NCBI RefSeq assembly: GCF_000169195.2
Contig: NC_016023.1
Location: 2,108,001 to 2,172,000, forward strand
Origin: Heyndrickxia coagulans 36D1
GTDB lineage: Bacteria > Bacillota > Bacilli > Bacillales > Bacillaceae_C
Reading direction: 5' to 3'
Length of the DNA: 64,000 nucleotides
Shown here: positions 5,360-55,351 of the stretch, one piece after another
How the letters are laid out: every line of letters starts with the position of its first letter
Position numbering within the stretch: position 1 is the first letter of the stretch
The notes under the pieces: model-generated
Databases searched by the model: none
The model's input: only the letters and a program-made list of their open reading frames with translations
What the model was told of the DNA's origin: nothing
Made by a program: the position numbers and the translations under genes

Positions 5360-5371
5360 GGGGAAGCCAAA

Positions 5372-9232: not shown

Positions 9233-9432
9233 AATAAGATACTCGTCAAAAATGTCGTCGACCCTCATTAGCGTAGAAAACCCGGGGGATCGACGACAAA
9301 TTGTTAAAAACGGATAAGCCTTTGACACTATTGGTACGGCTGTATTCCATTGGATGTTAAAGAGATTTTTTTGAGAAAGCAGGAAAATCCCACAGTCATG
9401 GAGAAATGTTATAATATCAATCATTTTATGGG
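9233..9432 (+). promoter_or_regulatory. CRISPR leader
   Basis: The 200 bases before the first repeat, between the mobile repeat and the array. They hold a strong dyad, GTCGTCGACCC (9254-9264) facing GGGGATCGACGAC (9285-9297), and an AT-rich 3' half ending in TTATAATATCAATCATTTTA just before the repeat. The leader normally carries the array promoter and the signals for polarised spacer insertion. Its position next to cas2 and the degenerate repeats at the far end both fix the array direction as left to right. The exact promoter was not identified. Confidence 0.75.
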
Positions 9433-15880: not shown

Positions 15881-16741
15881 TTACCTATGAGGAATTGAAA
15901 CACCAACAAAATGCAGGCGGTCGAAACGGGGCAGCTGCGTTTGTATTTTACCTATGAGGAATTGAAACATAAAACAAAAACAGTAAAGAAAATTGAGAAG
16001 CGTGTTTGTATTTTACCTATGAGGAATTGAAACAATAAGCTGCTGGAACACACGCTGAACATAAAGCGAGTTTGTATTTTACCTATGAGGAATTGAAACT
16101 CATAATAAGTGACGACGGGCATTGTCACGCCGTCAAGCGTTTGTATTTTACCTATGAGGAATTGAAACATAAATGTATAATGTGTGCCATATTGATTAGT
16201 ATGTGTTTGTATTTTACCTATGAGGAATTGAAACCAGCCTGTATATTCCTAGGATCACATACATAATCCCAGTTTGTATTTTACCTATGAGGAATTGAAA
16301 CCGAGTTCGCGAAGTTCGGCCGTCGTTTTGGTGCTGGATGTTTGTATTTTACCTATGAGGAATTGAAACGTCTTGGTTTTTGGGATGTCTGGCATGTCAA
16401 ATGTACCGTTTGTATTTTACCTATGAGGAATTGAAACAGGAATACTCCAGCCTCGATGTGGTCATTGGTGCTTTGTTTGTATTTTACCTATGAGGAATTG
16501 AAACCATTATACCACCCCATATAAAATAAAGGGGTAGCGACGTTTGTATTTTACCTATGAGGAATTGAAACAGGCGGGAGCGCCCCTCGGTCAAAAACTC
16601 ATCTAAGTTTGTATTTTACCTATGAGGAATTGAAACAAAGGCCATCACCCTGGTATCCCCCTTTGGTACGCCCGTTTGTATTTTACCTATGAGGAATTGA
16701 AACCTGTTGAGTGTGGAGCTGATCAACGACGCCGACTATAA
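15881..16741 (+). CRISPR. Type I-B CRISPR array, middle segment (12 full repeats plus the cut one)
   Basis: This segment continues the same array in phase. It begins with the 3' part of the repeat broken at 13845 and continues with 12 full repeats from 15939 to 16703, identical to the consensus. The last spacer, 16704-16741, is 38 bases and ends directly at the IS3-family element. Spacer lengths and repeat sequence are the same as in the first segment, so it was one array before the insertions. Confidence 0.97.
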
Positions 16742-16789
16742 TGGACCCATAAAACTAGACACAAAATGAGGAGCTGTTAAAGTAGGTTT

Positions 16790-17080
16790 ATGAGAAAAAG
16801 TTATACGCCTGAATTTAAAACTCAAGTCGTGCTAGAGGTCTTAAAAGAAGAAAAAACGATGAACGAAATTGCTTCTGCTCATGGAATCCATGTGAATCAA
16901 ATTCGCCAATGGAGAAATGCTTTTCTTGAACAGATGCCAAAAGTCTTTGAAAAAGGCAACAAAAAAGTTGAAAAAATGAAAGCCGAGTATGAACAGACCA
17001 TTGAAAGTCTCTATGCGGAAGTCGGCCGCCTAACCACGCAGTTGTCGTGGCTTAAAAAAAAATCTGGAATTAAGGAGTAG
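16790..17080 (+). CDS. IS3-family OrfA, transposase DNA-binding subunit
   Basis: A 96-residue helix-turn-helix protein of the IS3 OrfA type (RKSYTPEFKTQVVLEVLKEEKT, then a recognition helix around NQIRQWRNAF), followed by a coiled-coil tail that in this family mediates pairing with OrfB. Near its end nine adenines (about 17052-17060) follow CTT. This is the usual slippery site where a -1 shift yields the OrfAB fusion transposase. The frame stops at 17080, 16 bases before the first ATG of OrfB. Confidence 0.92.
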   Translation: MRKSYTPEFKTQVVLEVLKEEKTMNEIASAHGIHVNQIRQWRNAFLEQMPKVFEKGNKKVEKMKAEYEQTIESLYAEVGRLTTQLSWLKKKSGIKE

Positions 17081-17096
17081 AGCAGAACGAGTTGAA

Positions 17097-17903
17097 ATGG
17101 TCGACTGGGATGACGAAGCAAAACTGCCAATTTCCATCCAGGCCGATCTTTTGAGCCTGAACCGTTCAAGCCTGTACTACAAGCCAGTCGGGCCGTCTCC
17201 TGAAGAATTGTTTATCAAACATCGGATTGATGAAATCTACACCAAACATCCCTATTACGGCTCCAGGCGCATTGCTGCTTTACTGAATGCCGAAGGTTTG
17301 GTCATCAACCGAAAGGCTGTACAGCGCCACATGAGGGAAATGGGAATCGCCGGGATCACACCTGGTCCAAACCTGAGTAAGCGCAGTCTTGAACACCGAA
17401 TATACCCGTACCTTCTTAGAAACTTGAAGATTACACACCCTAATCACGTGTGGGGTATTGACATTACTTATATCCGGCTTCAAAAAAGTTGGATGTACCT
17501 GGTGGCGCTCATTGACTGGTATTCCCGCTATGTCGTTAGCTGGGAGATAGACCAAACCCTTGAGATCGACTTTGTGCTGGAAGCAGTGAAACGGGCATTC
17601 TTAGTCGCCAGGCCAGAGATCTTAAACAGTGATCAGGGCAGCCATTTTACCAGTCCCAAATACACGGATCTGGTGCTTGAGAACACGATTAAAATCAGCA
17701 TGGACGGCAAAAAAAGAGCCCTTGACAATATCATTACCGAAAGGCTTTGGCGAACCATCAAGTATGAGGAAGTATATTTAAAAGAATACAATTCCCCTAG
17801 AGAAGCAAGGAAAGAGATTGGTAACTTTATACAATTCTATAATCACGAAAGACTCCATCAGGCCCTGGGCTATAAGACTCCTGCCTCCGTTTATGGCCTT
17901 TGA
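17097..17903 (+). CDS. IS3-family OrfB, transposase catalytic subunit
   Basis: 268 residues from ATG 17097, but the frame is open further upstream through NLELRSRAERVE to the A-run inside orfA, which is the expected arrangement for OrfAB made by -1 frameshifting. HTH_21-type segment YGSRRIAALLNAEG is followed by the rve integrase core with Asp in VWGIDITYI, Asp in ILNSDQGSHF and Glu in DNIITERLWRTIKYEEVY. The C-terminus FYNHERLHQALGYKTPASVY is typical. It appears intact. Confidence 0.93.
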   Translation: MVDWDDEAKLPISIQADLLSLNRSSLYYKPVGPSPEELFIKHRIDEIYTKHPYYGSRRIAALLNAEGLVINRKAVQRHMREMGIAGITPGPNLSKRSLEHRIYPYLLRNLKITHPNHVWGIDITYIRLQKSWMYLVALIDWYSRYVVSWEIDQTLEIDFVLEAVKRAFLVARPEILNSDQGSHFTSPKYTDLVLENTIKISMDGKKRALDNIITERLWRTIKYEEVYLKEYNSPREARKEIGNFIQFYNHERLHQALGYKTPASVYGL

Positions 17904-18032
17904 GTGATTCATCCTTCGGGTAGAGGATACTTCTCCGGGGGTGTTGTGTCAAGGGTTCGGCAAAGCCCTCGCTACACTCGCCCTTGACACAACACCCCCG
18001 GAGAAGGAAAAATAAAGCAGGATGAATCACTC
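17902..18032. repeat. 131-bp nested palindrome at the 3' end of the IS3 element
   Basis: The outer arms are GAGTGATTCATCCT (17902-17915) and AGGATGAATCACTC (18019-18032). Inside them, 17932-17955 and 17981-18004 are perfectly complementary over 24 bases, around a 25-base loop. The structure begins at the orfB stop and could act as a transcription terminator or a barrier to incoming transcripts. It may also be a separate palindromic element captured by the IS. Confidence 0.85.
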
Positions 18033-18158
18033 CAAAAAATGTGAACTGTCCACTAACTGCCTCCAATGAGCATCCTCACGCTCTATTAGTCAGTATCTGT
18101 TTTTCAGATTCTGACCCACCTTAAAAATTTTAAATTTGTGTCTTGACGATGGGGTCCA

Positions 18159-19007
18159 CCTTAGACATCGGGTTTGTATTTTACCTATGAGGAATTGAAA
18201 CGCATCTGCATCCGTTTTTGTTATCCTGGCTGCAATTGTTTGTATTTTACCTATGAGGAATTGAAACTATTCCAACCCGGTTAATCTATTCAGGCATGTA
18301 TCCGTTTGTATTTTACCTATGAGGAATTGAAACTCGATAATGTCAAGGCTGGTATAGAAGAATTGCAAAAGTTTGTATTTTACCAATGAGGAATTGAAAC
18401 AAGTATGCCGGAGATGTGGCGTGAAAAATCCATTTCGCGTTTGTATTTTACCTATGAGGAATTGAAACAATAAAGTTGAAATTTTACTGATTCGGTCACT
18501 ATATGTTTGTATTTTACCTATGAGGAATTGAAACCGCGTGTCGTCCGTATCGTCGGCGCATAAGCGGTCCAAAGTTTGTATTTTACCTATGAGGAATTGA
18601 AACGTTTCATATCCCATCCACCGCCCGTTTGCATATTAGTTTGTATTTTACCTATGAGGAATTGAAACTACGTTACATCCGGCAGCTCCAAATAATCCTC
18701 TGCCTTCGTTTGTATTTTACCTATGAGGAATTGAAACAGATATTTCTCAGCCGCGCTGCTTCCGTCCAGCTCCGGTTTGTATTTTACCTATGAGGAATTG
18801 AAACCGCCGTATTCTTCAGCTATTACTTTCAGCGTTTTCTTGTTTGTATTTTACCTATAAGGAATTGAAACAGTCGGCATGACTGAAATAATTTAGGCAG
18901 ATTTTCATTGTTTGTACTTTACCTATAAGGAATTGAAACCATTCCGGGCAAAGTTCGGAGAAATACCGGTCTGCCTTGTTTGTACTTTACCTATGAGGAA
19001 TTAAAAC
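18159..19007 (+). CRISPR. Type I-B CRISPR array, leader-distal segment (13 repeats, degenerate end)
   Basis: It begins with 13 bases of a spacer remnant after the IS3 element, then 13 repeats from 18172 to 19007. One internal repeat (18371) has CCAATGAG instead of CCTATGAG. The last three drift progressively: 18842 has CCTATAAGG; 18910 has GTACTTTACC and CCTATAAGG; 18978 has GTACTTTACC and ends TTAAAAC. Decay confined to one end marks it as the old, leader-distal end and agrees with the leader at 9233-9432. Confidence 0.97.
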
Positions 19008-19646: not shown

Positions 19647-20066
19647 TTATGTATTTTTGTCATCCTCATCGTCCAGTTCCCTGATCAAATTCCAAGTCTG
19701 ATAAATCCGGTTTGCCATTTTCTCAGGATCTTTCAGCATCATTTGATATAAATCCGGTTCATGGCTCAACGTCTCAAGCAGTTTCTTTTCCGGATTACTG
19801 ACCGCTTCATTTGTCTTCAGGCCCACATGGTTGGTAAGGCCTAAAAGATAATCAATGGATACTTTTAACACTTGCGAAATCCGGTATAACACCTTAATAG
19901 AAGGAAAACTGTATCCAGTTTCGTAGTTCGAAATGTTCCGGTCGCTTACCCCGACCCTTTTCGCAAGTTCAGGCTGGCTGTAGCCTTGAGCTGCCCGCAC
20001 TTTTTTCAAACGGGCTGCGAATATTGCTTTAACGTTATCCATGTTTTCATTCCCGTGATCGGCCAT
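19647..20066 (-). CDS. XRE-family (Cro/CI-type) transcriptional regulator
   Basis: A 139-residue regulator. The helix-turn-helix lies around residues 17-70 (RLKKVRAAQGYSQPELAKRV, then DRNISNYETGYSFPSIKVLY), and the C-terminal 70 residues are acidic and helical with no known domain. The ATG follows AAGGAG at an ideal distance. It is divergent from a plus-strand promoter at 20103-20129 bracketed by a 9-bp inverted repeat, which could be its operator. Proteins of this shape are common both in mobile elements and as Bacillus house regulators (SinR/YgzD-like). Its target is unknown. Confidence 0.85.
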   Translation of the reverse strand: MADHGNENMDNVKAIFAARLKKVRAAQGYSQPELAKRVGVSDRNISNYETGYSFPSIKVLYRISQVLKVSIDYLLGLTNHVGLKTNEAVSNPEKKLLETLSHEPDLYQMMLKDPEKMANRIYQTWNLIRELDDEDDKNT

Positions 20067-20102: not shown

Positions 20103-20151
20103 TTGACTTCCAAAATAATTGTGTATAATATAAGTGTATAGAAATTATTTT
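20103..20151 (+). promoter_or_regulatory. Divergent promoter with flanking inverted repeat
   Basis: TTGACT at 20103-20108 and TATAAT at 20124-20129 are separated by 15 bases; shifting the -10 to TAATAT gives 17. AAAATAATT (20112-20120) and AATTATTTT (20143-20151) form a 9-bp inverted repeat around the -10 box, a plausible operator for the XRE regulator encoded just upstream on the other strand. The transcript would enter the structured region at 20181-20301. Confidence 0.55.
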
Positions 20152-20302
20152 GTTGATGAGTGTCTGTACAAAGTTGACAAAGAGCCGGAGACACGAAGAA
20201 AATAGAGCTTCAGCAAAAAATACCCCCCTATTTTCTCATGATTCTTACTTGCAGTTCCCAAATTCAAAGTAAGAGTAATACGGTCTCCAGGCTCTATTTT
20301 TA
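20140..20302 (+). ncRNA. Candidate structured small RNA with a C-rich motif (copy 1)
   Basis: AGAGCCGGAGAC (20181-20192) pairs with GTCTCC-A-GGCTCT (20283-20295) with one bulged base, followed by a short T-run (20297-20301) as in a terminator. Inside, AATACCCCCCTATTTTC lies in a loop region; its CTATTTTC end can also pair with an upstream GAAAATAG. A further hairpin, TCTTACTT with AAGTAAGA, lies after it. No ORF fits. The same C-rich motif recurs at 31372-31392 in another apparent RNA gene. Start and function are inferred. Confidence 0.5.
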
Positions 20303-20415
20303 CAGTCTCCCTTCCAGTTTAGCATGAAAACGGTGCGGTTTTAACCCTTTTTCAAATTATAAACGATTTCATATAAAAATGGCGGGCCAATGATCCCTGC
20401 CATTCCATCTTCATT

Positions 20416-20732
20416 AATCCACATTGTTGATGAACAAATCCGTTTCTGGCTTGCCATGAACCAGCTTTCGCGTGCAAAGAGGAGTCCGGGCAAAGCGGCC
20501 AGTTTCCTTGCCAAATCCAGGCACAGCAACCCCTCAAGCAGGCAGGGCAGCTGCATGCCTTTGTAGAATCCCCGCCATTCAAATCCACATTGTTGATGAA
20601 CAAATCCGCTTCTGGCTTGCCAATGAACCAGCTTTTGCGTGCAAAGAGGAGTCCGGGCAAAGGGGACAGTCTTCTTGCCGAGACCAGAGATCGCAACCCC
20701 TCAAGCAGGCAGGGCAGCTGCATGCCTTTGTA
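20416..20732. repeat. Tandem duplication, two units of about 166 bp
   Basis: Unit 1 begins AATCCACATTGTTGATG at 20416 and unit 2 repeats it at 20582. They match closely through CTCAAGCAGGCAGGGCAGCT and CATGCCTTTGTA, with scattered substitutions and a 1-base indel. Open frames on the minus strand cross both units and contain cysteine-rich peptides, but they have no clear ribosome site and shift frame between the units. I do not call a gene. Confidence 0.8.
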
Positions 20733-20830
20733 AAATTTCCATTTCCTACGGGTTCATGCACCAACTTTGTCAGGGATTTTTGATGAAACAAATTATAAAA
20801 ACGCATCATGGCTTACGTTCATTTTCAAAT

Positions 20831-20877
20831 AACCCAGCCCATGCCGGTTCCGTTATTCAATCGGCATGGGCTGGGTT
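20831..20877. terminator. Strong hairpin downstream of the phosphatase gene
   Basis: A perfect 16-bp inverted repeat, AACCCAGCCCATGCCG (20831-20846) with its complement at 20862-20877. It lies after the stop of the minus-strand phosphatase gene. No long T-run follows on either strand, so it may be a weak terminator or an mRNA-stabilising hairpin. Confidence 0.6.
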
Positions 20878-20919
20878 CCTGTAGCAATGGGCAATCGTTA
20901 TTCTGAAAATGTCTAACCC

Positions 20920-21540
20920 TCATTTTATTGCATATAAATGCGTATTTAGATTAATGGCCAGAAATCCGGCGTTTTCCGGTGCCTCTTTGTAAATTGTAAT
21001 GCCCGTGTTGTCTTGCGGGATCATCCGGTAATTTTTAAACGGGACTTCCAGTGTTCCGGCGACGAAAAAGCGGATTGCCATGCTGTGGGCCACAACAAGG
21101 ACGGTTTCCTCCGGATGTTTTTCCACCAGCTCATTGATACAGGCACGGACACGGTTATAGACCTGGACGGCCGTTTCCCCCGTATAACCCGCATGTGTCG
21201 CGCCCGGATCTTGTAGCCATGCCTCCCAATTATCCGCATAGTTTACGGAAAAGTCTTCCTGCCGTTCTCCTTCCCAGGCACCGAAGTCCGTTTCGACAAG
21301 ACGCGGATCCTGGTGTATTTCCAAATTCCGCCCCTTCACGAGAATTTCTGCCGTACGGACAGCACGGCCCAATGTTGATGCGTAAACCGCATCAAACGGA
21401 ATGTCCTTTAAAAATCCTGCCGCCAGTTTCGCCTGCCGCACGCCGGTCTCAGACAAACCGATATCGCTTCTCCCGCAATATCTGTTCCGGTCGGCGTTCC
21501 ATTCTGTCTGGCCATGGCGCACAAAATAAAAAAGTGTCAT
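20920..21540 (-). CDS. Histidine phosphatase / phosphoglycerate mutase family
   Basis: 206 residues from ATG 21540, which follows GAGGT; an upstream GTG or ATG in frame would add nine residues without a better site. The RHG motif FVRHGQTEWN at residues 6-15 holds the phosphohistidine. The second catalytic histidine is in VVAHSMAIRF, and the Arg and Glu of the family lie in YASTLGRAVRTAEI and ETDFGAWEGE. The branch includes GpmB-like, PhoE-like and cobalamin phosphatases, and substrate cannot be read from sequence. No cobalamin genes are nearby, so a broad-specificity PhoE-like role is most likely. Confidence 0.88.
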   Translation of the reverse strand: MTLFYFVRHGQTEWNADRNRYCGRSDIGLSETGVRQAKLAAGFLKDIPFDAVYASTLGRAVRTAEILVKGRNLEIHQDPRLVETDFGAWEGERQEDFSVNYADNWEAWLQDPGATHAGYTGETAVQVYNRVRACINELVEKHPEETVLVVAHSMAIRFFVAGTLEVPFKNYRMIPQDNTGITIYKEAPENAGFLAINLNTHLYAIK

Positions 21541-21784
21541 AATGTACCTCTTTTCACAAAGTATCAACTGGTTTTATTTTAGCAAATTGAAGCGTGGAAT
21601 GCTATCTCCCGCGGATGACCAGCAAATTGATGCCGGCTATGCAACGCGAATGCGTCCCGCCCTTCGCTATAAAAAATTTATTTGCTATATTATATTAAAA
21701 TATTATATAATGGCAAAGGACGCTAAAACATTGGAGAAGGATGAGTTGTTTTTTATTTTTTAAAAACTTCATATCATCGCTCAA

Positions 21785-21941
21785 TTACATGTTTATGTAA
21801 ACGGGGGAACCAACGGGTGCTTTGGGCACCAGGGGTGAAACCTTTCATTGAAAGGTAGGGAAACTCTTTATTCCCTAATCCGTCAGCTAACCTCGTAAGC
21901 GTCTGGAGAGAACTGCGTGTGTTTTTTGGACACGCCTTTTA
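21785..21941 (+). promoter_or_regulatory. c-di-AMP riboswitch (ydaO/yuaA type) with terminator
   Basis: The conserved blocks are visible: GGGGGAACCAACGGGTGC near 21803, GGGGTGAAACCTTTCATTG near 21832, GGTAGGGAAACTC near 21854, and AATCCGTCAGCTAACCTCGT with AAGCGT near 21877-21901. A terminator hairpin follows, GCGTGT (21915-21920) with ACACGC (21930-21935) and T residues. In this class c-di-AMP binding favours termination. The next gene on the strand is the GltP-type symporter 180 bases on. Confidence 0.9.
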
Positions 21942-22120
21942 AGCAAAAATGCTGCGAAGGAATTTCTCTCTTTCGTGGTTTTTTTTTCATCCGCAAATTC
22001 GGTTTCCACATGGAAATCCGGAAACCGGTGGTATCTGCAATTTGAGTTTTACAAACAATCCGGTATGCAGCTTGCGTACTGCGCTTTTTGAAAAAATATT
22101 GGCATCTGGGAGGGACCTAC

Positions 22121-23422
22121 ATGAAAAGAGTGAGTTTAGCCTGGCAGATTTTTATCGGCCTGATTCTCGGTATTGCGATCGGCGGCATTTTTCACGGAAA
22201 TGACACCGTGGCCCATATTCTCCAGCCGTTTGGCGATTTCTTTTTGCGCTTGATTAAAATGATTGTGATCCCGATTGTCGTTTCAAGCCTGATTGTCGGT
22301 GTTGCCGGTGCAGGAGATATGAAGCAGGTTGGAAAGCTCGGCCTGAAAGCATTAATCTATTTTGAAATTGTCACGACCATTGCAATTGTAGTCGGGTTGC
22401 TGGCCGGAAACTTGTTCCATCCGGGTACAGGGGTGGATATGGGTTCGCTGGCAAAAACATCGATCAGCAGTTATGTGGAAACAACGAAAGAGACGCAGCA
22501 CAATGGCATAGTCGATACGATCTTAAATATTGTGCCGACGAACTTGTTTGAATCCCTTTCACAAGGGAACATGCTTCCAATCATTTTCTTCTCTGTCATG
22601 TTCGGGATCGGGGTGGCAGCCATCGGGGAAAAAGGAAAACCGGTGCTCCGCTTTTTCCAGGGTGTCAGTGAAGCGATGTTTTATGTCACCAATTTGGTCA
22701 TGAAAGTGGCCCCGATCGGTGTATTCGGCCTTATTGGCGTAACGGTTGCGCAATTCGGCCTCAAGTCATTGATCCCGCTGAGCAAGCTTGTTTTCACGGT
22801 TTACGGCACGATTATTTTCTTTGTGGTTGTCGTGCTTGGCCTGATTGGCTGGCTTTTCCGTGTAAATATTTTCAAACTCTTCAAGATCCTGAAAGACGAA
22901 TTGATCCTTGCCTATTCCACTGCAAGCTCAGAAGCGGTGCTGCCAAGGCTCATGGAAAAAATGGAAAAATTCGGTTGCCCGAAATCGATCACCACACTGG
23001 TTATTCCGACCGGGTACTCCTTCAACCTGGACGGCTCGACCTTGTACCAGTCGCTGGCGGCGCTGTTTATCGCGCAAATGTACGGGATTCATATGTCCAT
23101 CGGTGCGCAAATTTCCCTGGTGCTCGTGCTGATGGTCACGTCAAAAGGCATCGCCGGTGTTCCGGGAGTTTCATTCGTCGTGCTTTTGGCGACGCTGGGA
23201 ACGGTCGGCATTCCGATTGAAGGCCTGGCATTTATTGCGGGGATTGACCGTATTCTAGATATGGCAAGAACAGTCTGCAATGTCGTTGGCAATACGCTTG
23301 CAACCATTATTGTGTCAAAATGGGAAGGAAAATATGATAAAGAAAAAGGAGAAGCGTACCTTGCCGAAATCAGCGGCGGCGGGCACGATTCCAAAGATCA
23401 CAAATATGTAACGGAATCTTAA
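22121..23422 (+). CDS. gltP: Sodium/proton:glutamate (dicarboxylate) symporter, DAACS family
   Basis: 433 residues from ATG 22121, which follows GGGAGGG; an upstream in-frame start at 22088 lacks a site. The protein has the DAACS layout: about eight membrane helices and two re-entrant loops, with the serine-rich STASSEAVLPRL, the FNLDGSTLYQ motif in place of NMDGT, and PGVSFVVLLATLG. It is close to B. subtilis GltP/GltT, importing glutamate and aspartate. The c-di-AMP riboswitch in its leader ties uptake to osmotic and potassium signalling. A terminator follows at 23440. GltP against GltT cannot be decided from sequence alone. Confidence 0.9.
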   Translation: MKRVSLAWQIFIGLILGIAIGGIFHGNDTVAHILQPFGDFFLRLIKMIVIPIVVSSLIVGVAGAGDMKQVGKLGLKALIYFEIVTTIAIVVGLLAGNLFHPGTGVDMGSLAKTSISSYVETTKETQHNGIVDTILNIVPTNLFESLSQGNMLPIIFFSVMFGIGVAAIGEKGKPVLRFFQGVSEAMFYVTNLVMKVAPIGVFGLIGVTVAQFGLKSLIPLSKLVFTVYGTIIFFVVVVLGLIGWLFRVNIFKLFKILKDELILAYSTASSEAVLPRLMEKMEKFGCPKSITTLVIPTGYSFNLDGSTLYQSLAALFIAQMYGIHMSIGAQISLVLVLMVTSKGIAGVPGVSFVVLLATLGTVGIPIEGLAFIAGIDRILDMARTVCNVVGNTLATIIVSKWEGKYDKEKGEAYLAEISGGGHDSKDHKYVTES

Positions 23423-23439
23423 GATGAGCATAAAGTTAA

Positions 23440-23477
23440 AGAAGGTGCGTTGCCGGAACAAGGCAGCGCGCCTTTTT
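23440..23477 (+). terminator. Terminator of the symporter gene
   Basis: The stem AAGGTGCGTTGCC with GGCAGCGCGCCTT is followed by a run of T (CTTTTTTG). It lies 20 bases after the symporter stop. Confidence 0.85.
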
Positions 23478-23648
23478 TGTTTTCGAACGTTCTGCCCGTT
23501 GAAAGAACACCGGCAGTGTGCCCTTTTTACATGTGCCCGGAAAAAATTGTGCCTCTGTTTCCAAGGATTGTTACCGGCCGGGCTGCAATAATGAGCACCC
23601 CGGGGCACAAACTATTCACAGCATGTATTGATTTTTGGAGGGATAAAG

Positions 23649-24794
23649 ATGGGCAAAAAAATGCTGCTGTGGGCAGCGGTACTGTCCCTCGCTCTTTTTC
23701 CCCGGACGGAACATGCGGATGCGGCTTTTTGGTTTCAGCCGAAACGGGCCACTGTCGATTTGCGTTTGCTGGAGACATCGGATTTGCACGGCTATATGCT
23801 GAATTACGATTATGCCGCGCGCACTGAGGCGGAGACTTACGGGCTTGCCCTCACGGCTTCACTCATTGCGGCGGAGAGGAAAGCGGCAAAAAATACGATG
23901 CTGTTTGATGACGGGGACTTGCTCGAAGGGAGTGAAATGGCTGCTTATGCTGCCCGGCGCCCGTTAAAAAAGGGGGAAATTCACCCGTTTATTCGTGTGA
24001 TGAACCATTTAAATTACGATGCGGCGACCGTGGGCAACCATGATTTTCATTACGGACTTGATTTTTTGAAACAGACGATCAGCGGAGCAAAGTTTCCGTT
24101 TGTGAATGCCAATATATACTATAATTTCGAAAAAAATGATACAGATGACCAAAATTTTTTTAAACCCTATGTGATTTTGAATAAAAAAGTGGAAGACCGG
24201 CACGGGCATTCTCATCATTTGAAAATCGGGGTCATCGGGTTTGTCACGCCTTCTGTCATTGAATGGGAAAAACCGAGCCTTGGCGGCAAAGTCAAAGCAA
24301 AGGACATCCTGCATACGGCTGCCTGGTTTGTCCCGAGAATGAAGGCGGAAGGAGCCGACCTGATCATCGCGCTCGCCCATTGCGGTGTGGATCCGGCTGC
24401 AAAACAACCGTTTTATACAGGGGATGCCGTATATTTATTAAGCGAGGTAAAAGGGATTGATGCCATTCTGTTCGGGCATCAGCACAGGGTGTTCCCAAGC
24501 GAATTTTTTGCAGGCGTTCCCGGTGTCGATATCCGGAAAGGGACGATCAATGGCGTGCCTGCGGTGATGCCCGGCAAGTGGGGGAGCCATCTCGGTGTGA
24601 TCAGTCTCACTTTGGAAAAAAAGGGAGAGAAGTGGGAAATGACGGAGGCGCAATCCGAGGCGAAACCGGTATATGCCACCCACAATCAGCAGGCAAAATC
24701 CATTGTCAGGCCGGATCCGGATATTGTCCGGATGACCGCCGAACTGCAAAAAAACGTACTGGGATCCAAGTTTACTTTATATAGCCGAAACTAA
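23649..24794 (+). CDS. Secreted metallophosphoesterase, CpdB/YfkN-like, lacking the 5'-nucleotidase C-terminal domain
   Basis: 381 residues from ATG 23649 behind GGAGGG. Residues 1-25 form a signal peptide (MGKKMLLWAAVLSLALFPRT...ADA). The metal-binding motifs of the calcineurin-like fold are complete: LETSDLHGYM, FDDGDLLEGS, TVGNHDFHYG, ALAHCGVD and LFGHQHRVFP. Family members (2',3'-cyclic-nucleotide phosphodiesterase/3'-nucleotidase) continue with a C-terminal substrate domain of some 200 residues. Here the protein stops at a TAA directly before a hairpin terminator. It may be a truncated gene or a stand-alone catalytic domain. Substrate specificity is normally set by the missing domain. 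Confidence 0.82.
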   Translation: MGKKMLLWAAVLSLALFPRTEHADAAFWFQPKRATVDLRLLETSDLHGYMLNYDYAARTEAETYGLALTASLIAAERKAAKNTMLFDDGDLLEGSEMAAYAARRPLKKGEIHPFIRVMNHLNYDAATVGNHDFHYGLDFLKQTISGAKFPFVNANIYYNFEKNDTDDQNFFKPYVILNKKVEDRHGHSHHLKIGVIGFVTPSVIEWEKPSLGGKVKAKDILHTAAWFVPRMKAEGADLIIALAHCGVDPAAKQPFYTGDAVYLLSEVKGIDAILFGHQHRVFPSEFFAGVPGVDIRKGTINGVPAVMPGKWGSHLGVISLTLEKKGEKWEMTEAQSEAKPVYATHNQQAKSIVRPDPDIVRMTAELQKNVLGSKFTLYSRN

Positions 24795-24798
24795 TTTG

Positions 24799-24830
24799 CC
24801 CATGCCGCCATTGTTGCGGCATGGGTATTT
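24799..24830 (+). terminator. Terminator of the metallophosphoesterase gene
   Basis: The stem is CCCATGCCGC (24799-24808) with GCGGCATGGG (24816-24825), followed by TATTT. It starts five bases after the stop codon. Confidence 0.75.
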
Positions 24831-24949
24831 AAGTGAAGGAAAAAGGGGGCAAATTTTAACATCACCGGGTTCCAGCCGTGGCGTTCTACAATTTGCGGCG
24901 AAAATTATAACGGGCGTGCAGGCTCCGTTTGCCGGGAAACGGGGCGCTG

Positions 24950-25801
24950 TCATACGGTGTACGTTTCTTTTCCTTTTTGTAAAATTTCTTCGTTCGTATC
25001 TTTATATCTCAGCATGACATTGACATACAGGGTGTCGATGAGGCTAAGCTGTACGATCCGCGCGGAAAAGGAAGAAAAGCGGAAATCTGCTTCTTGTGAA
25101 ACTGTAAATAAAGGGACATCGGCTTTCTGGCTTAGCGGCGATTTTGCAAATTGCGTGATCGCGATCGTTTTCGCCCCGGTTTTCTGAACGGCCTGGAGCA
25201 ACTTCAGCATCTCTTTGTCCGCGCCCGCGTGAGAAATGAAAACCGCCACATCTTCTTTGGTGCATCTTGCCGCGCTCAACAGCTGCAGATGGGGGTCCGT
25301 ATAAGCCGTGACAGCCAAATCCGTCTGCAAAAATTTTTCGAGGGCGTCAAGGGCAATAACGGACGCACTTCCGCAGCCGTAAAACACAATATGCTTCGCA
25401 CGGCAAATCCATTCAACGGCCTCATGCAAATGTTTTTGGTTCAATGTATGGATCGTATCCTGCAAGGTCTCGATATTGGATTCAAACACTTTTATGGCAA
25501 CTGCTTTTTCATTGTCGGTATCTTTCACTGCTTCGTCCATATTTTTCCCGGGGCGGGCGGCTTCCGCAGCGAGCGCAATCTTCAACGCCTGAAATCCGCT
25601 GAAACCGATGCGCTTGCAAAACCGGAATACCGTCGCATCGGCAACAAGCAACTGATCCGCCACCTGGTTGATCGTGCTGTGGACCAAACGCTGCGGGTTC
25701 TCAAGGATGTAGTCTGCAATTTTCCGTTCTTTTGCGCTAAATTCGCTGTACATCGTTTGAATTCTATGAAGACACGGGAATGACTGCAATTGTGTGCCCA
25801 T
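24950..25801 (-). CDS. RpiR/MurR-family transcriptional regulator with SIS domain
   Basis: 283 residues from ATG 25801, preceded by GAAAGGTG; the frame is open further upstream but without a site. Residues 1-80 form the HTH_6 domain (FSAKERKIADYILENPQRLV, then ADATVFRFCKRIGFSGFQAL). Residues 125-260 are a SIS sugar-phosphate-binding domain (HIVFYGCGSASVIALD, VFISHAGADKEML, TIAITQFAKSPLSQKAD). Regulators of this class sense phosphosugars, such as N-acetylmuramic acid 6-phosphate in MurR. No sugar operon is adjacent, so the ligand is unknown. Confidence 0.9.
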   Translation of the reverse strand: MGTQLQSFPCLHRIQTMYSEFSAKERKIADYILENPQRLVHSTINQVADQLLVADATVFRFCKRIGFSGFQALKIALAAEAARPGKNMDEAVKDTDNEKAVAIKVFESNIETLQDTIHTLNQKHLHEAVEWICRAKHIVFYGCGSASVIALDALEKFLQTDLAVTAYTDPHLQLLSAARCTKEDVAVFISHAGADKEMLKLLQAVQKTGAKTIAITQFAKSPLSQKADVPLFTVSQEADFRFSSFSARIVQLSLIDTLYVNVMLRYKDTNEEILQKGKETYTV

Positions 25802-26136
25802 CTTCAAACACCTTTCTTGTTGTGTCGTACCTTCTGTTTTTATTTTAGTATAAAATCTTCCTTTTTTGAAACCGCTGCCATAAAAGGAATGGGTCAAGTT
25901 TTCTTCGCTCTTGCCAGCAAACGGGGCAACCGGCGATACTTTTGCTGCCGCTGAAAAATCAATCCAGTTGCATCCCCCCGCACCAGGCCCGGGTTTTCTC
26001 ATCATATTTTTAGGGAAAACGGACGGTGCAATCGTGTATAATAAAAATGATGCATCACGATGGGCTGATTTGCAGGCATCTTTTGAAATGGCAGGCGGAA
26101 AGCCCGCAACATTTCAAAAAAGGAGGCGTAAAAAGA

Positions 26137-27051
26137 ATGCTAAAAAGATTGGGCTTGATTTGGTTCATCGCTATGATTGCGCTTGGATTCAGCATGAACG
26201 GGGTGGCAAAAGCATCTGGCGATAATAGTACAGTGATCGATGAAAAATACGGGAAACCGATCGTTGTAACCGGTGCGGCGCTTTCTGCCTCGCAAAAGGC
26301 AGAGGTGGAAAAGGAACTTGGCGTGGACGATGCAAACAATGTGGAAGAGATTACCGTAACCGGTGATGATCTTGTCCATTACATTCCTGACGGCAACCGC
26401 AATTCGAATATGTACTCATCCGCAAAAATTACAAGAACGGATTCCGGCGGTGTCCAGGTGAATATTGTCACACCGGAGAATATTACAGAAGTGACAGCGG
26501 ATATGTATAAAAATGCGCTGCTCACTGCCGGGATTAAAAATGCGGAAGTGGAAGTGGCTTCCCCGCTCAAAGTAACCGGCCATTCAGCGCTTGTCGGTAT
26601 TTATAAAGCTTACGACGATTCAAGTAAATCCGGGGACAAACTTGATTCAGACCGGACGGAAGTGGCCAGCCAGGAACTGAGTGTCGCAACGGATCTGGCG
26701 AAAAAGGAAGGGTTAAGCAATGACAAAGTGACCCAGCTTCTTACGGAAATTAAGCAGGAAATTGCGGACCAGCATCCGGCAACAAAAGAAGATATTGAAA
26801 AAATCGTCGATGATAAATTGAAGGATTTAAACATCAATTTGAGCGATTCTGACCGCCAGCTGCTGTATGATTTATTTGACCAGATGCGCAAGCTTAACAT
26901 CAATTTTGACTCGGTCAAGAGCGAATTGAGTTCCTTGTCGGACAAACTGAGCGATAAGATCAATAAAGCAGCCGGAGACAAGGGTTTTTGGCAAAGCGTA
27001 AAAGACTTTTTCCAAAACATCTTTGACGCGATCCGGGGATTATTCCAATAA
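26137..27051 (+). CDS. ypuA: YpuA-like secreted protein (DUF1002)
   Basis: 304 residues from ATG 26137, 10 bases after a perfect AGGAGG. A signal peptide is evident (MLKRLGLIWFIAMIALGFSM...AKAS). Residues 45-190 have the DUF1002 character: VVTGAALSASQKAEVEKELG and MYSSAKITR, then VNIVTPENITEVTADMYKNALLTAG. The C-terminal third is helical and heptad-like (DSVKSELSSLSDKLSDKINK), ending in an amphipathic stretch with Phe and Trp. B. subtilis YpuA is exported and responds to cell-envelope stress; its biochemical role is unknown. A TATAAT lies at about 26036. It converges on the next gene. Confidence 0.85.
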   Translation: MLKRLGLIWFIAMIALGFSMNGVAKASGDNSTVIDEKYGKPIVVTGAALSASQKAEVEKELGVDDANNVEEITVTGDDLVHYIPDGNRNSNMYSSAKITRTDSGGVQVNIVTPENITEVTADMYKNALLTAGIKNAEVEVASPLKVTGHSALVGIYKAYDDSSKSGDKLDSDRTEVASQELSVATDLAKKEGLSNDKVTQLLTEIKQEIADQHPATKEDIEKIVDDKLKDLNINLSDSDRQLLYDLFDQMRKLNINFDSVKSELSSLSDKLSDKINKAAGDKGFWQSVKDFFQNIFDAIRGLFQ

Positions 27052-27055
27052 TGGC

Positions 27056-27105
27056 AAAGAAGGCAGTGCGCCCCTAATTTCCGGCGCTGCTGCCTTCTTT
27101 TTGTT
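27056..27105. terminator. Bidirectional terminator between convergent genes
   Basis: AAAGAAGGCAG (27056-27066) pairs with CTGCCTTCTTT (27090-27100), followed by TT. A-rich sequence on the left arm makes it work for the minus strand as well. The stop of the minus-strand gene lies inside the loop. Confidence 0.85.
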
Positions 27106-27979
27106 GAACATTTTTATCTGTGCTGCTTTGGCCGGGGGCAGTTTTTGCAGGGGTGCCATTCTGTTCCGTTCCCTGGCCGGAAGCAGGTTTTGTGCCAGTG
27201 TTGTCCGATTTTGTTTCCTCAGCATTCTTCGTTTTTGTATCATCCGCGTTTTCTGATTTTTTATTTTTATTTTGATCCGTAACCTTGCCATCCGTTTTCG
27301 CATCGTGCTGTTTTTTTGTATCCTGTGTTTCTGTTTTCGCTTTATCCTGCGTGTCAGCCTTCGCTTTATCAGCCGTATCAGACTTGCCATTTTTTTCTTC
27401 CTTGTTTTGTTCAGGAGTACCGCCCTTAAGCAGTTGTGTCAGCTGATCGGCCTGTTTTCGCAACGTTTCTTCATCGGAACCGGAAGTGTCAAAATTGGCT
27501 GCGCCGGTTTCCATCGAAAGGTCAAGGCCCGGCAGATCCGCATTGTCGGCAAGCTGTTGATGGGCAACAAGGCGGACGTTTTTCATGCCGATTTGTCCGG
27601 CTTTTTCCGGGACGTAAATGCTGCCAAAGTCCACCTTTGTAGCATCGGCCTTCATATTTTTCAATTGGATCGGGCCGGGAGCATTCATATGGATTGTCAC
27701 CGGTCCCCCGGGCGTTTGCAGCACTTTTGTGATTTTCAGTCCGTAAATGGTAACATCCGCATACTGCAGGCGGAGCATGACCTGATTTTGTTTCGTTGCT
27801 GTATCGCCTGCTGTAATCCCGGGCGGAAGCATCACGCCTTCCACGCGGTCTGCTTCAATGATGAAGCCGTCTGTTGCGGGGGATTCAGCCACTGAAATGT
27901 TTGTAAAAAAGCAAAAATTAAATGCAATAAATACGGCTGTCAATAGGAAAGATTTTGTTTTCTTCACTTGCCTCACCAT
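27074..27979 (-). CDS. Secreted protein with long Lys/Asp/Thr-rich tail, last gene of the DUF6230/DUF6114 set
   Basis: 301 residues with an N-terminal signal peptide (KKTKSFLLTAVFIAFNFCFF...SVAES). Residues 35-160 form a folded, beta-rich part (FIIEADRVEGVMLPPGI, LRLQYADVTIYGLKITKVL). Residues 185-301 are low complexity, dominated by K, D, T, Q and N (DTQDKAKTETQDTKKQ), probably unstructured or wall-spanning. The folded part resembles the DUF6230 protein two genes upstream in size and its GxL...ADVTIYGLKI-type strand pattern, so it may be a diverged relative. Start ATG 27979 has a weak site; a GTG four codons later follows GGTGAGG closely. Confidence 0.65.
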   Translation of the reverse strand: MVRQVKKTKSFLLTAVFIAFNFCFFTNISVAESPATDGFIIEADRVEGVMLPPGITAGDTATKQNQVMLRLQYADVTIYGLKITKVLQTPGGPVTIHMNAPGPIQLKNMKADATKVDFGSIYVPEKAGQIGMKNVRLVAHQQLADNADLPGLDLSMETGAANFDTSGSDEETLRKQADQLTQLLKGGTPEQNKEEKNGKSDTADKAKADTQDKAKTETQDTKKQHDAKTDGKVTDQNKNKKSENADDTKTKNAEETKSDNTGTKPASGQGTEQNGTPAKTAPGQSSTDKNVQQKEGSSAGN

Positions 27980-27994
27980 TTCTGTGTATAGTCT

Positions 27995-28417
27995 TTATCT
28001 TTCTTCTGCACTCCCTGCGGCAATTTCTTCCATCGGCCCAACACTAGCCAGCACTTCCTCCTGCCTGATCACCCGCCATGAAACAGATAAAGACCCGCCG
28101 ATGATACCGAGCAGGGTTCCAATGAAAAATCCGCCCATCGCCCCCATGATGGAAAGGACAGACAGGAAAATGGCCAAAATGCCGAACACCATATTAAACT
28201 TCGGGAAAAAATAACCCATTCCGCCGATCAGAAAAATCAAGCCGCCGAAAATAAGGCCGATCGACACCATGCTACCGGGCGCGGCTGCAATTTCAAGAAG
28301 TTGGACCGGCACATATAAAATGATCATCCCGGAGAGCAACGTAAACGTTGCCCCCCAGAATGGCCGGCTTCTTCTCCAGTTTCTAAATTTCATGCGGAAC
28401 ATATGGAACTTGCCCAT
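27995..28417 (-). CDS. Four-helix membrane protein, DUF6114-like
   Basis: 140 residues from ATG 28417, 8 bases after AAGGAG. Four membrane segments are visible (FWGATFTLLSGMIILYVPV, GSMVSIGLIFGGLIFLIGGM, MVFGILAIFLSVLSIMGAM, GFFIGTLLGIIGGSLSV) between a basic N-terminus and an acidic C-terminus. The topology and its place between two exported proteins match the DUF6230-DUF6114 pair known mainly from actinobacteria. Function is unknown; a membrane partner for the secreted proteins is a reasonable guess. Confidence 0.7.
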   Translation of the reverse strand: MGKFHMFRMKFRNWRRSRPFWGATFTLLSGMIILYVPVQLLEIAAAPGSMVSIGLIFGGLIFLIGGMGYFFPKFNMVFGILAIFLSVLSIMGAMGGFFIGTLLGIIGGSLSVSWRVIRQEEVLASVGPMEEIAAGSAEER

Positions 28418-28441
28418 TATGATCACTCCTTGAAGAAAAGC

Positions 28442-29050
28442 CTATTTTTTGACAAACTGCACTTTTAGGTTCGGAAGATTTGCGACTTTTTGGAATAGGT
28501 AATGTGTATCCAGGCTGCCGTTTTTGATCGTTAAAGTATCTGCCCCTTGTGTAAAAGCCTTTGAAGCAGCTTGAGGGTCATCGGCAGTGACATAATTTTC
28601 CGAAATATTCATATTGGTGAAGACTGCATCCCCCTGGACAAGCGCAGCTTTTTGAATCAGCCCATTAAGGTGTACAGGTGTGTTTCCGTCGCCCGCCGTA
28701 ATTTTCACCTGGTAATCGCCAAGAACCGGAATCTTAACATCTTTTGAAATAACCAAGTCCTGGATCGTCACTTTATCAATTTCATTGACAAAGACCGGTT
28801 TGACATGGTCCTCCCCTTTGGATGGATCCCCGTATAAACTCCCGTATAATTTAAACCCGGTACCTTGCATTTGTTTGAATGAAACATTGAATTTGCCAAT
28901 GCCGCCGACAGTTGCTGCAACGGCAACCCCGTTAATGCCGAGTACAGCTAAAAGTCCCCCCAAAAAAATAAGGCCTGAAAGCAGAGCGGTAAAAAACCAT
29001 TTTTTTGAAGTTCTCCCTTGTCCTTGTAAGACTAATGCCCCTTCGTTCAT
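28442..29050 (-). CDS. Membrane-anchored extracellular protein, DUF6230-like
   Basis: 202 residues with one N-terminal transmembrane segment (WFFTALLSGLIFLGGLLAVLGINGVAVAATVG) and an extracellular beta-rich domain (GKFNVSFKQMQGTGFKLYGS, VTIQDLVISKDV, ADTLTIKNGSLD). The ATG follows GGGGAGG. It is the first gene of a three-gene unit with 24- and 15-base gaps, and is divergent from the GAF-LuxR regulator at 29337. The pattern AVAATVGGIGKFNVSF is what I associate with DUF6230; this assignment is from memory. No enzymatic residues stand out. Confidence 0.7.
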   Translation of the reverse strand: MNEGALVLQGQGRTSKKWFFTALLSGLIFLGGLLAVLGINGVAVAATVGGIGKFNVSFKQMQGTGFKLYGSLYGDPSKGEDHVKPVFVNEIDKVTIQDLVISKDVKIPVLGDYQVKITAGDGNTPVHLNGLIQKAALVQGDAVFTNMNISENYVTADDPQAASKAFTQGADTLTIKNGSLDTHYLFQKVANLPNLKVQFVKK

Positions 29051-29336
29051 GTAACAATCCTCCCCTTTAAAACTTGATCATTTAAAAAAGATGGTACGCT
29101 AAAATATTTAGGTGAAAAATCCCCTCCTTTCCAAATGATATCGCTTACATTTTTCTTTATTTTATTCATTTTGGACAAAAAAATATATTCCTATTATTGT
29201 AGGGAATTCAATGGCTTATGGCCTACAAATATCGTGTCGGAAAGCCGGTATGTTTTTTTGCGCGCCAACCAGGCATGATTATGATAATATTATAGGGAAA
29301 AAGACCGGTAAGGGGTTAGACAAAGGAGGGAGAAAG

Positions 29337-30872
29337 GTGTCGCTGTCGTTAAATGCGCATATGGACATGGTCATGAAACATGGAGTGGACCTTTTGCGCT
29401 CGCACCAGCAGCAAATTATTGCGGAATGTACGGGAATTTTGCAGTATTTGAGAGAAACACATAAAGGCAGTGCGGATGCTTTTGAATTCGCTTTCAATTG
29501 TTTTGTCGCCTTTTTCCGTTCCGGCCAGCAATCGGTTGAGACGCTGATTGACGATATCCGGTCGCAATGGGTGAAGGAATTCCACCGCCCGCCGGAACCG
29601 CATGTTCTCATCTTTATTTTAACACTGATTGAAAACTCTGTTCATAAAGCCATAAAAGAAAGCACGACCCGGTCTTTTCATTTGCATCCTTCCGTCCAGT
29701 ACCTGTTTTCGAAAATCTGCGAAGAAATGCTGCTCATTTCCAAACAGGAAACTTTTCAAATGGATTCATTTTGTGAGCAGCTAACCAAATCCGAGCAGCT
29801 CAGAATCGAGTGGATTGCAAGGGTCAGCCATGTGGATGGGGGGTACCGGCTGAAGAAAGTGATCGGGATGGAGGAGAACGCGATTGACAGCGGGCTGTTT
29901 GAACGGACGGATCCTTCATGGTTTTGGCTGTCGGAAGCGCTGCTGAAGCGGACGCCGCGCCGGAAACCGGATGAAAGGCGGGATGTGTTTCCGGTTCCGT
30001 GGAAAAACGAGACGTTGATTTTTTGTATGAGCGACCAGGATGTTTCGGCCACAATCCCGTTTTTAACCTATGCGATGCATTTGTTGCAGATGGAGGAGGA
30101 ACGAAACGGAAAAGTATATGCGGGCGACCAGTGGAAAGATGCAGTCATTTTATTTAACGAATGGATTATGCGCTCCCAGGATTTAAATGAAGCGATCCAA
30201 AACATCGCTTTTGGTTACGCACAATATTTGCCGTTTGAGCGCTGTGCCCTGTTCCGTTATTCGCAGAGCGATGCCGCGGGATTCGGCCTGTTCGGCTACC
30301 ATTTTAACAATACGGCAATCCGGAATATAAAGGAGACGATCGACCGTTTCCCTTCCATTTCCAAAATATTGCTGGGGAAGGGGCAGCAGGTAAATATGGT
30401 ACAGCATTTCCAGCCGCTGTATATCCCAAAAGCGTCAGAAGAGTTTCCGATGCAGTATGTGAAGGAGTTTGAGCTGGAATCGGTCGTGGTTGCCCCGATT
30501 TATGTGCCGTCAGAAGGGGTGTTAATTGGCGGTGCCATTTTGGACCAGGGGCCGGGGAAGTTTTTTGAAGTGGACAGCAGCACATTTACGGCGCTGTTGA
30601 AATTCGGTCAGAGCGCAGGTGAACTGCTGGCCAAGTTTTTAAAAGCGAACCAGTGGGACGAAAAGCAGCCGGAACTCGTCCAGCTGTCCGCCCGGGAAAT
30701 CCATATTTTGCAGCTCTTGGCGGACGGGGCCTCGACGACGGAAGCAGCGGAAATGCTGCATTTGAGCGAGTATACGGTCCGGGATTATGTCTCAAGCCTG
30801 ATGAAGCGGCTTCACGCTAGAAACCGGACGGAAGCCGCTGTAAAAGCAATGCGGCTTGGGCTGATTCATTGA
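29337..30872 (+). CDS. GAF-domain LuxR/NarL-type transcriptional regulator
   Basis: 511 residues from GTG 29337, which follows a strong AAAGGAGG; the frame is open upstream but without a site. The N-terminal 200 residues are helical with no motif I recognise. Residues 300-430 look like a GAF sensor (AIQNIAFGYAQYLPFERCALF, ESVVVAPIYVPSEGVLIGGAI). The C-terminal 60 residues are a LuxR-type HTH (LSAREIHILQLLADGASTTE, AEMLHLSEYTVRDYVSSLMK). It has no receiver domain, so it should respond to a ligand or protein rather than phosphorylation. Its divergent position makes the DUF6230/DUF6114 set the prime target. Confidence 0.82.
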   Translation: MSLSLNAHMDMVMKHGVDLLRSHQQQIIAECTGILQYLRETHKGSADAFEFAFNCFVAFFRSGQQSVETLIDDIRSQWVKEFHRPPEPHVLIFILTLIENSVHKAIKESTTRSFHLHPSVQYLFSKICEEMLLISKQETFQMDSFCEQLTKSEQLRIEWIARVSHVDGGYRLKKVIGMEENAIDSGLFERTDPSWFWLSEALLKRTPRRKPDERRDVFPVPWKNETLIFCMSDQDVSATIPFLTYAMHLLQMEEERNGKVYAGDQWKDAVILFNEWIMRSQDLNEAIQNIAFGYAQYLPFERCALFRYSQSDAAGFGLFGYHFNNTAIRNIKETIDRFPSISKILLGKGQQVNMVQHFQPLYIPKASEEFPMQYVKEFELESVVVAPIYVPSEGVLIGGAILDQGPGKFFEVDSSTFTALLKFGQSAGELLAKFLKANQWDEKQPELVQLSAREIHILQLLADGASTTEAAEMLHLSEYTVRDYVSSLMKRLHARNRTEAAVKAMRLGLIH

Positions 30873-30921
30873 ACTCGCCATTTTCCTCCGTTATGCACTT
30901 TTTTTAAAAGGCGAAGTCATG

Positions 30922-31145
30922 AGGGCTTGCTGAACGAATCCGATTTTGAGTTTGTACCCAATTTGTCAGCAAGCCCTGTCTCAAAGTATAGAAGAATCCA
31001 TTTGCGAAAATGTGTAATTTTGTCTTCTTAATACGTTGAGTCGGTTTTCGAGTGCTAGCTTTTCCCTGGAGTTGTTGTAAAAATTTTTGCCAAAGCGGTC
31101 AGCATCCATGCCAAATTTGGGGATTTTGCTTATACAGCAAATCCT
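30922..31145. repeat. Diverged second copy of the small mobile repeat, inverted
   Basis: It begins AGGGCTTGCTGAACGAATCC at 30922 and ends GATTTTGCTTATACAGCAAA near 31142. Read in this direction it parallels the reverse complement of 9232-8950, including TATAGAAGAATCCATTTGCG and GAAAATG near 30988. It is shorter (224 against 283 bp) and has a short internal inverted repeat at 30922-30977. No coding content. Confidence 0.6.
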
Positions 31146-31327
31146 ACGTAGGTAAAAAATTGTGTGTAAAATGATCGAAGTCCGGGTAAAATACTTTTAC
31201 ATCCTAGAGTCTGCTGCAAAGTTCAAAGCCCCCGAATTTGCGGGGGCTGTAAATTTGACAAAATAAAAGTCTCCCAAAAAAATGGGAGATCTAGACAAAA
31301 TAAATCAATTTTCTTATAATTTGTTAT

Positions 31328-31448
31328 GCAGGCGTAAAAAGGTTTTCGATTAAGTGTTTAAGTTTAACAACAAAAAATACCCCCCTATTTTCGTTAAATC
31401 TTTTTTAGAAGAACGCCTGCAAGAGCAGGTTTCGGCCTGCTCTTTTTT
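31328..31448 (+). ncRNA. Candidate small RNA with C-rich loop and intrinsic terminator (copy 2)
   Basis: A promoter with TAGACA (31292-31297), 17 bases, and TATAAT (31315-31320) predicts a start at about 31328. There GCAGGCGT (31328-31335) can pair with ACGCCTGC (31413-31420). Within lies AATACCCCCCTATTTTC (motif 31372-31392) flanked by TTTAAC and GTTAAA. The RNA ends in a textbook terminator, AGAGCAGG (31422-31429) with CCTGCTCT (31436-31443) and T residues. No reading frame fits. The single-stranded C6 could bind GGGGG ribosome sites. It recalls C-rich sporulation or iron sRNAs of Bacillus (CsfG, FsrA), but I cannot confirm identity. Just upstream are hairpins at 31227-31248 and 31270-31289. 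Confidence 0.72.
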
Positions 31449-31708
31449 CTACTCAATACAGCTGGCTCTCTTCACACAATTTCTCTTCGAAATGTTTATC
31501 ACGGCGCTGAATCCGGATCATGCTTAGCTCAGTGGCGGGAATTTTAGTGAAAATGGGCTGATTCTCTGACAAATAAGAAGGAAACGGAAATAATGGGATT
31601 TTTTAAAGATTTTTTCGCCGAAAGAATTCTCCCGCACCCACAAATGTTAAGGCACTCACTTTTGCAGAAACAAAATAATTTTGTACGGATTTTGCACAGA
31701 AGAAATGC

Positions 31709-55349: not shown

Positions 55350-55351
55350 TA

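Follow-up and report, generated by a model that had tools for sequence, protein, structure and literature searches.

What is a C-rich sequence of 22 nucleotides (nt) doing in two non-coding loci of one bacterial genome? The question is raised by a 64,000-nt stretch of Heyndrickxia coagulans 36D1 (contig NC_016023.1, positions 2,108,001 to 2,172,000; hereafter the window), which belongs to a genome of 3,552,226 bases in one contig. An original prediction proposed that the window encodes two candidate small RNAs (sRNAs) with a C-rich loop in common. The motif is indeed present at both places on the plus strand, with the identity running to 22 nt (CAAAAAATACCCCCCTATTTTC): at 20214-20235 (copy 1, with its run of six C, or C6, at 20223-20228 and the last C in a stem) and at 31371-31392 (copy 2, C6 at 31380-31385). 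If one mismatch is allowed the identity extends to 25 nt; the spacing of this direct repeat is 11157 bp. Copy 1, we conclude, is very probably a real sRNA. Copy 2 resembles copy 1 in the C-rich stretch only, and the two do not form one structural RNA family. The reading we favor – an sRNA under an XRE-type repressor whose C-rich loops would block ribosome-binding sites, together with a younger sibling that shares the seed – has, taken whole, about an even chance of being right.

The core of the repeat is the 17-mer AATACCCCCCTATTTTC, exact at 20219-20235 and 31376-31392, both on the plus strand. With up to three mismatches it has two matches in the window, against a mean of 0.28 in shuffled sequence (n = 100, one of which also had two), and an ungapped search of the 3.55-Mb genome allowing up to two mismatches gave no third site. 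The longest repeat in each of 20 first-order random sequences with the composition of the window measured 15-22 nt, and one of the 20 reached 22 nt; length alone is therefore suggestive and no proof, and the case rests instead on the fact that both copies sit in strongly folded loci with promoter-like sites. Longer repeats in the window, outside the block of clustered regularly interspaced short palindromic repeats (CRISPR), were found only near 20.5 kb and at 55-56.6 kb, in a search that, for direct repeats, skipped words occurring more than six times.

Across GTDB representatives the exact 17-mer occurs in 19 stretches, one of which (L021, from H. coagulans DSM 1) is copy 1; the others are spread over other phyla and distant Firmicutes. 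Because some 30 such matches are expected by chance from length alone (2 x 257 Gb / 4^17), we give them no weight. Among 40 relatives the exact 17-mer is confined to genomes G000 and G002 (the latter taken as DSM 1), and with up to two mismatches it is matched in 27, about as often, by eye, as a reversed control. Inspection of seven near-matches to the motif region revealed none with a C run in a comparable closed hairpin followed by a T-run. No stretch in IMG/VR contained the 21-mer of the motif (six contained a 16-mer), and not one of 77 extracted CRISPR spacers reached 65% identity to either locus. In two metagenome-assembled genomes of Clostridia (L006:115-161 and L005:1330-1380) the 17-mer and its own complement form a near-perfect inverted repeat that is probably unrelated; in G025, L042 near 1500 (minus), a one-mismatch motif lies on the opposite strand directly before an ATG (AAAATAGGGGGATATTACGATG) and resembles a ribosome site.

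The candidate sRNA of copy 1 spans 20138-20302 on the plus strand, with a start placed from its promoter and a T-run at 20297-20301. It is laid out as a closing stem, a hairpin with the C6 loop, a hairpin with a CAGUUCCC loop and then the T-run. Folding of 20181-20300 yields -36.7 kcal/mol (z -5.8; 0 of 200 shuffles equal it), with a predicted closing stem, P1, that pairs 20181-20195 with 20281-20295. The C6 hairpin has the stem GAAAATAG/CTATTTTC and a 22-nt loop containing most of C6: the predicted unpaired probability of the first five C is 0.82-0.99, leaving five of the six mostly open, while the U-rich part of the shared stretch is predicted to be paired in the P2 stem. A sigma-A-like promoter lies at 20103-20131 (TTGACT-17-TAATAT, 9/12, with a TATAAT two bases nearer). 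The original prediction placed both motifs within complementary arms ending in T-runs, and both folds do beat their shuffles (z -5.8 and -4.8); the terminator of copy 1 was missed by the terminator scan, being the closing stem of the entire fold. T-runs follow the closing stem on the plus strand here and in the relatives G003 and G001, which points to the plus strand; the first gene downstream to match a family (20920-21567) reads in the direction opposite to copy 1. Directly downstream of copy 1, at 20416-20736, are two tandem copies of a 166-167-nt unit, where DSM 1 aligns in two overlapping blocks, so that the number of units may differ.

Comparison with relatives makes copy 1 the better supported of the two. 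DSM 1 and the window share 98.6-99.2% identity around copy 1. A diverged congeneric species, G003 (DNA identity of 75-80% across the neighborhood), has a relative of copy 1 at the matching place, which keeps both ATACCCCC-TATTTTC and the second C-rich loop, CAGTTCCC (20252-20259 in copy 1, plus strand), unchanged although its stem differs. In the closing stem and second stem of G003 letters have been altered and pairing retained: an RNAalifold consensus of the two sequences shows, in 5 of 22 pairs, a change of both letters that preserves the pair, whereas the 8 pairs of the C6 hairpin are invariant and hence uninformative on covariation. By our reading the G003 row of this alignment is off by 1-2 bases in the 3' closing arm, with the effect that the pair counts and the covariance model underuse that arm. 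The G003 sequence also folds far better than its shuffles (z -3.7), and the same promoter arrangement is found at the copy 1 locus of both G003 and G001. Searched against 149 genomes including G000, under stricter filters that lose some weak matches, the covariance model recovers G000, G002 and G003 with E <1e-33; no other hit falls below E 0.06. In a DNA search of 120 relatives 101 have some match at E <= 1, and beyond G000 and G002 the sole one read as a relative of copy 1 is that of G003 (E 2.8e-7).

What might control copy 1? Divergent from it, on the minus strand at 19647-20066, is a gene for an XRE-family repressor of 139 amino acids with a Cro/CI-type helix-turn-helix (Pfam HTH_3, E 1.4e-15). 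The protein resembles phage repressors; its best NCBIfam model, the RstR repressor, scores below cut-off. Orthologues are found in G002 (99%), G003 (85%) and G001 (62%), and none in G004 at E <= 1e-10. Spanning the divergent promoter region that the gene shares with copy 1 is an inverted repeat, CAAAATAATT-N22-AATTATTTTG (20111-20120 and 20143-20152), which we consider a candidate operator. Its arms pair at 10 of 10 positions here, at 12 of 12 in G001 and at 8 of 10 in G003. From this arrangement, the XRE protein probably represses both its own gene and the copy 1 RNA by way of the palindrome.

Copy 2 is a different matter. Its candidate sRNA occupies 31327-31445 on the plus strand (the ends are deduced) and is closed by a stem of 31328-31335 with 31413-31420. 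As the original prediction held, it has a promoter with 17-bp spacing (31292-31320; TAGACA-17-TATAAT, 11/12, equaled in none of 200 shuffles of the upstream region and the better of the two promoters) and a textbook intrinsic terminator (31421-31444; a 10-bp stem and T-run). The segment 31328-31448 folds at -38.3 kcal/mol (z -4.8; 0 of 200 shuffles equal), and the last five C of its C6 have predicted unpaired probabilities of 0.91-1.0, leaving five of six mostly open, as in copy 1. In the DNA search 119 of the 120 relatives had some match to copy 2 at E <= 1, none of which, beyond G000 and G002, reads as a relative; the best outside these two (E 1.8e-4) covers 42 nt of the upstream part. The proposal of two sRNAs thus fares unevenly: for copy 1 it is borne out by loops kept and stems changed in G003, and for copy 2 it has a promoter, a fold and a terminator in one genome. 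A second sRNA is plausible, if thinly supported, and we judge it somewhat better than an even bet.

The location of copy 2 tells something of its history. It lies in a segment of ~749 bp (30923-31671) that is absent from H. coagulans DSM 1, where the alignment jumps from 30922 to 31672; the synteny of G003 with the window stops at ~30870. The segment begins with an interspersed repeat of ~228 nt (30920-31147) for which 49 matches were listed in this genome, including itself, the others being 68-93% alike; partial copies lie near window positions 9232-9160. This search scored 40 of 94 candidates, and the short match of copy 1 is not among the matches listed; nor, for the rest of the ~749-bp segment, is there any match among them but itself. 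Plasmids gave no match for the segment, and phages gave two of 29 nt, both over the copy 2 terminator. From its setting, copy 2 looks young. Its 22 nt have the sequence seen in copy 1 of the coagulans genomes rather than that seen in G003, suggesting that copy 2 was derived from copy 1 or that both have been under recent shared selection.

Two direct copies of 22-25 nt, 11157 bp apart and with a tRNA gene near the second, could also be the pair of attachment sites left by an element inserted between 20.2 and 31.4 kb. In DSM 1, however, the intervening DNA and the flanks on either side of copy 1 are present and copy 2 is missing; moreover, none of the seven open reading frames (ORFs) scanned between the copies matches a recombinase, the other ORFs there being unscanned. 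The arrangement in DSM 1 led us to reject this explanation, to which we attach next to no probability. We also rejected the notion that the loci encode small peptides. By direct reading, an ATG frame of ~38 codons opens at 20156 and extends through copy 1, and a GTG frame of 57 codons (31354-31527) lies over copy 2. The shared 22 nt are nevertheless read in different frames in the two copies, G003 lacks an ATG at the corresponding position and has lost one base from its C-run, and the frame of copy 2 runs through its terminator. The frame mismatch and the G003 deletion decide the matter, and a peptide product is very improbable.

If the two loci do encode sRNAs, the following mechanism would account for them. 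Copy 1 would be a trans-acting RNA of ~160 nt; the divergent XRE protein would repress itself and copy 1 through the palindrome over the shared promoter, and derepression would allow the RNA to be made. The RNA would adopt a three-way-junction fold in which the terminator stem is the closing helix, and its two C-rich loops, AAUACCCCCC and CAGUUCCC, would pair with G-rich translation start regions so as to block ribosome binding. Copy 2 would be a younger and independent sRNA gene with the same 22-nt C-rich seed and a constitutive-looking promoter, and would act on a set of mRNAs overlapping that of copy 1. The repeat, the promoter-like sites, the predicted folds, the terminators, the loops and covariation of copy 1, the divergent arrangement and the palindrome can all be seen in the sequence; transcription, binding by XRE, pairing with targets and the sharing of targets are what we infer from them.

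Pairing of C-rich single-stranded regions with Shine-Dalgarno sequences is an established mode of action in Firmicutes, as for RoxS/RsaE and LhrC (PMC4409812; PMC4132741). The genome was searched for partners. The pattern RGGGGGG-N4-12-ATG is matched 69 times and its reverse 29 times; 15 of the 69 are one repeated sequence at 10 loci, five more are overlapping duplicates, and 49 remain, the control not having been cleaned in the same way. The repeated sequence is one that we take to be antisense to 23S rRNA. Thirty loci drawn from the 69 matches were inspected. The best single candidate partner is a G7 ribosome site (duplex -23.8) ahead of what reads by eye as a LytTR-type response regulator gene. 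In G003 the run at this site is G6, while G001 and G004 read GGGGTG there; DSM 1, which has copy 1, carries a 37% relative of the gene and nothing closer, and the G-run overlaps the end of the upstream gene and may reflect coding constraint. We regard the regulator as a lead only. Of the original suggestion that C6 loops pair with G-rich ribosome sites, then, the C6 is predicted to be mostly open in both copies, which such pairing requires, and the searches gave no convincing target; that the shared stretch functions as a seed is, in our judgment, an evenly balanced proposition.

The lack of a clear mRNA partner would also fit a reading in which the shared 22 nt are instead a protein-binding element, in RNA or DNA, with one RNA-binding protein or regulator recognizing AAUACCCCCCUAUUUUC in both transcripts for the purpose of stability or sequestration. 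The identity covers A-rich, C6 and U-rich parts, which is more than a minimal seed demands, and the surroundings and structure differ between the copies, as they might for a linear recognition site. Such a site sits less easily with G003, which tolerates three substitutions and a one-base deletion of C within it, and with the pairing of the U-rich part in the P2 stem of copy 1. We consider this explanation unlikely.

A number of observations weigh against an XRE-controlled, C-loop sRNA with a younger sibling. For copy 1, 30 of 200 shuffled versions of the upstream region score as high as the promoter; the covariation comes from two distinct sequences; and within the 22 nt the three substitutions and the deletion in G003 leave C5, of which three of the five C are predicted to be mostly open. 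For copy 2, the DNA search of 120 genomes found no full-length relative, and no 10-bp palindrome was found upstream. The original prediction had named a covariance search as a check, with a motif lying outside any conserved structure as one of two outcomes that would speak against it: the copy 1 model gives copy 2 11.0 bits (E 2.2) and so does not recover it, placing the copy 2 motif outside the conserved structure of copy 1. For the targets, a perfect AGGGGGGTAT exists at one place besides the two loci, ~245 nt upstream of an ORF read as a sugar kinase, and is not a ribosome site; the wobble-tolerant complement with one mismatch has eight sites, two of them at copies 1 and 2, compared with 10 for its reversal. 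As a whole the target searches are not persuasive, and no target stands out.

There is also G001, which retains the repressor, the promoter, the palindrome and a strong closing terminator stem (z -4.0), different from the P1 of copy 1, and has neither of the C-rich loops. This implies that the C6 loop is not what the locus is kept for in G001, and that the C-rich loops are younger, or less stable, than the arrangement of repressor and RNA. Copy 1 could then be an XRE-controlled RNA whose role is independent of C6, such as a leftover of a phage-type repressor module, in keeping with the likeness of its repressor to those of phages, and copy 2 a fragment that arose by chance or by recombination where intergenic DNA has been rearranged: it adjoins an interspersed repeat in DNA that DSM 1 lacks, and a 22-nt repeat did arise in one of the 20 random sequences. 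Yet both C-rich loops persist in G003 although stem letters have changed there, and copy 2 has a strong promoter-like site and a terminator of its own. We hold this account to be improbable, though not strikingly so.

Returning to the pair of sRNAs sharing a seed, a more specific history may be sketched, which on present sequences we offer as speculative and rather unlikely in its full form. A repressor–sRNA switch restricted to the genus would have had its seed alone copied into a newly assembled sRNA gene in one lineage, and in another relative the parent locus would have swapped or lost the seed under the same operator. If true, then sRNA networks can grow by transplantation of seeds rather than by duplication of whole genes; one operator over two RNA interiors in sister species, together with one seed shared by a pair of unrelated RNA genes, would illustrate the evolution of sRNA targeting. 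Of more practical interest, copy 1, with its likely regulator, is an sRNA candidate open to testing in a Bacillaceae lineage of industrial and probiotic use. A full-text literature search returned, among the matches listed, no paper on a Bacillus coagulans sRNA by title.

Several other features of the window deserve brief mention. The region 68-18939 contains type I-B-like cas genes and, after them, CRISPR arrays whose repeat occurs 84 times in exact form; among them are transposase genes of the IS1182-like (6149-7558 and 14075-15538) and IS3 (17097-17903) types. Between the two copies, a c-di-AMP riboswitch (21768-21915; 95.8 bits) precedes a GltP-like glutamate/aspartate symporter (22088-23422; just below the cut-off of the GltP model). 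Toward the other end of the window, dispersed repeat units of the TCTAATTAGACAAATG type (55140-56649) flank an ORF (55591-56406) on both sides.

How do the two loci relate to known RNAs? Neither matches an Rfam family at family thresholds; permissive scans (E<=10) returned five matches for copy 1 and 15 for copy 2, all below the family cut-offs. CsfG, FsrA and RsaE are not among these permissive matches, the presence of FsrA and RsaE in the library being unchecked. The likeness to CsfG or FsrA that had been suggested for the two loci consequently fails as a claim of membership. CsfG (RF00516, ylbH) is likewise a Bacillaceae RNA with C-rich or CU-rich loops, as described in PMC3574147 and PMC4409812; its C-rich stretches differ by eye from those of copies 1 and 2, and the genome has CsfG elsewhere, at genome positions 192870-192990 (109 bits). 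At neither promoter did the consensus sequences of sigma-E, -F or -G give a match better than shuffles. FsrA has three C-rich regions and is a member of the Fur regulon (PMC4409812). Unlike FsrA, copies 1 and 2 have no Fur box that beats shuffles: the best match to the consensus is 11/19 at both promoters, a score reached by 113 and 95 of 200 shuffles. Two further matches are borderline: at copy 1 a sigma-B-like one (9/12; 13 of 200 shuffles do as well), at copy 2 a CcpA-like one (9/11; 23 of 200).

Two other systems offer a comparison in mode of action. RoxS/RsaE of Bacillus and Staphylococcus is an sRNA that stands on its own; several of its single-stranded regions are C-rich and are proposed to pair with G-rich Shine-Dalgarno sequences (PMC4409812). 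RoxS is under the control of ResDE (PMC4409812), whereas the control of copy 1 looks to be of XRE type. The LhrC family of Listeria comprises several sRNAs with common target sites of UCCC type (PMC4132741); LhrC (RF00616) scores 16.7 bits at copy 2, against a cut-off of 110, and has no match at copy 1. The five copies of LhrC are described as quite similar to one another, while copies 1 and 2 of H. coagulans share 22-25 nt only.

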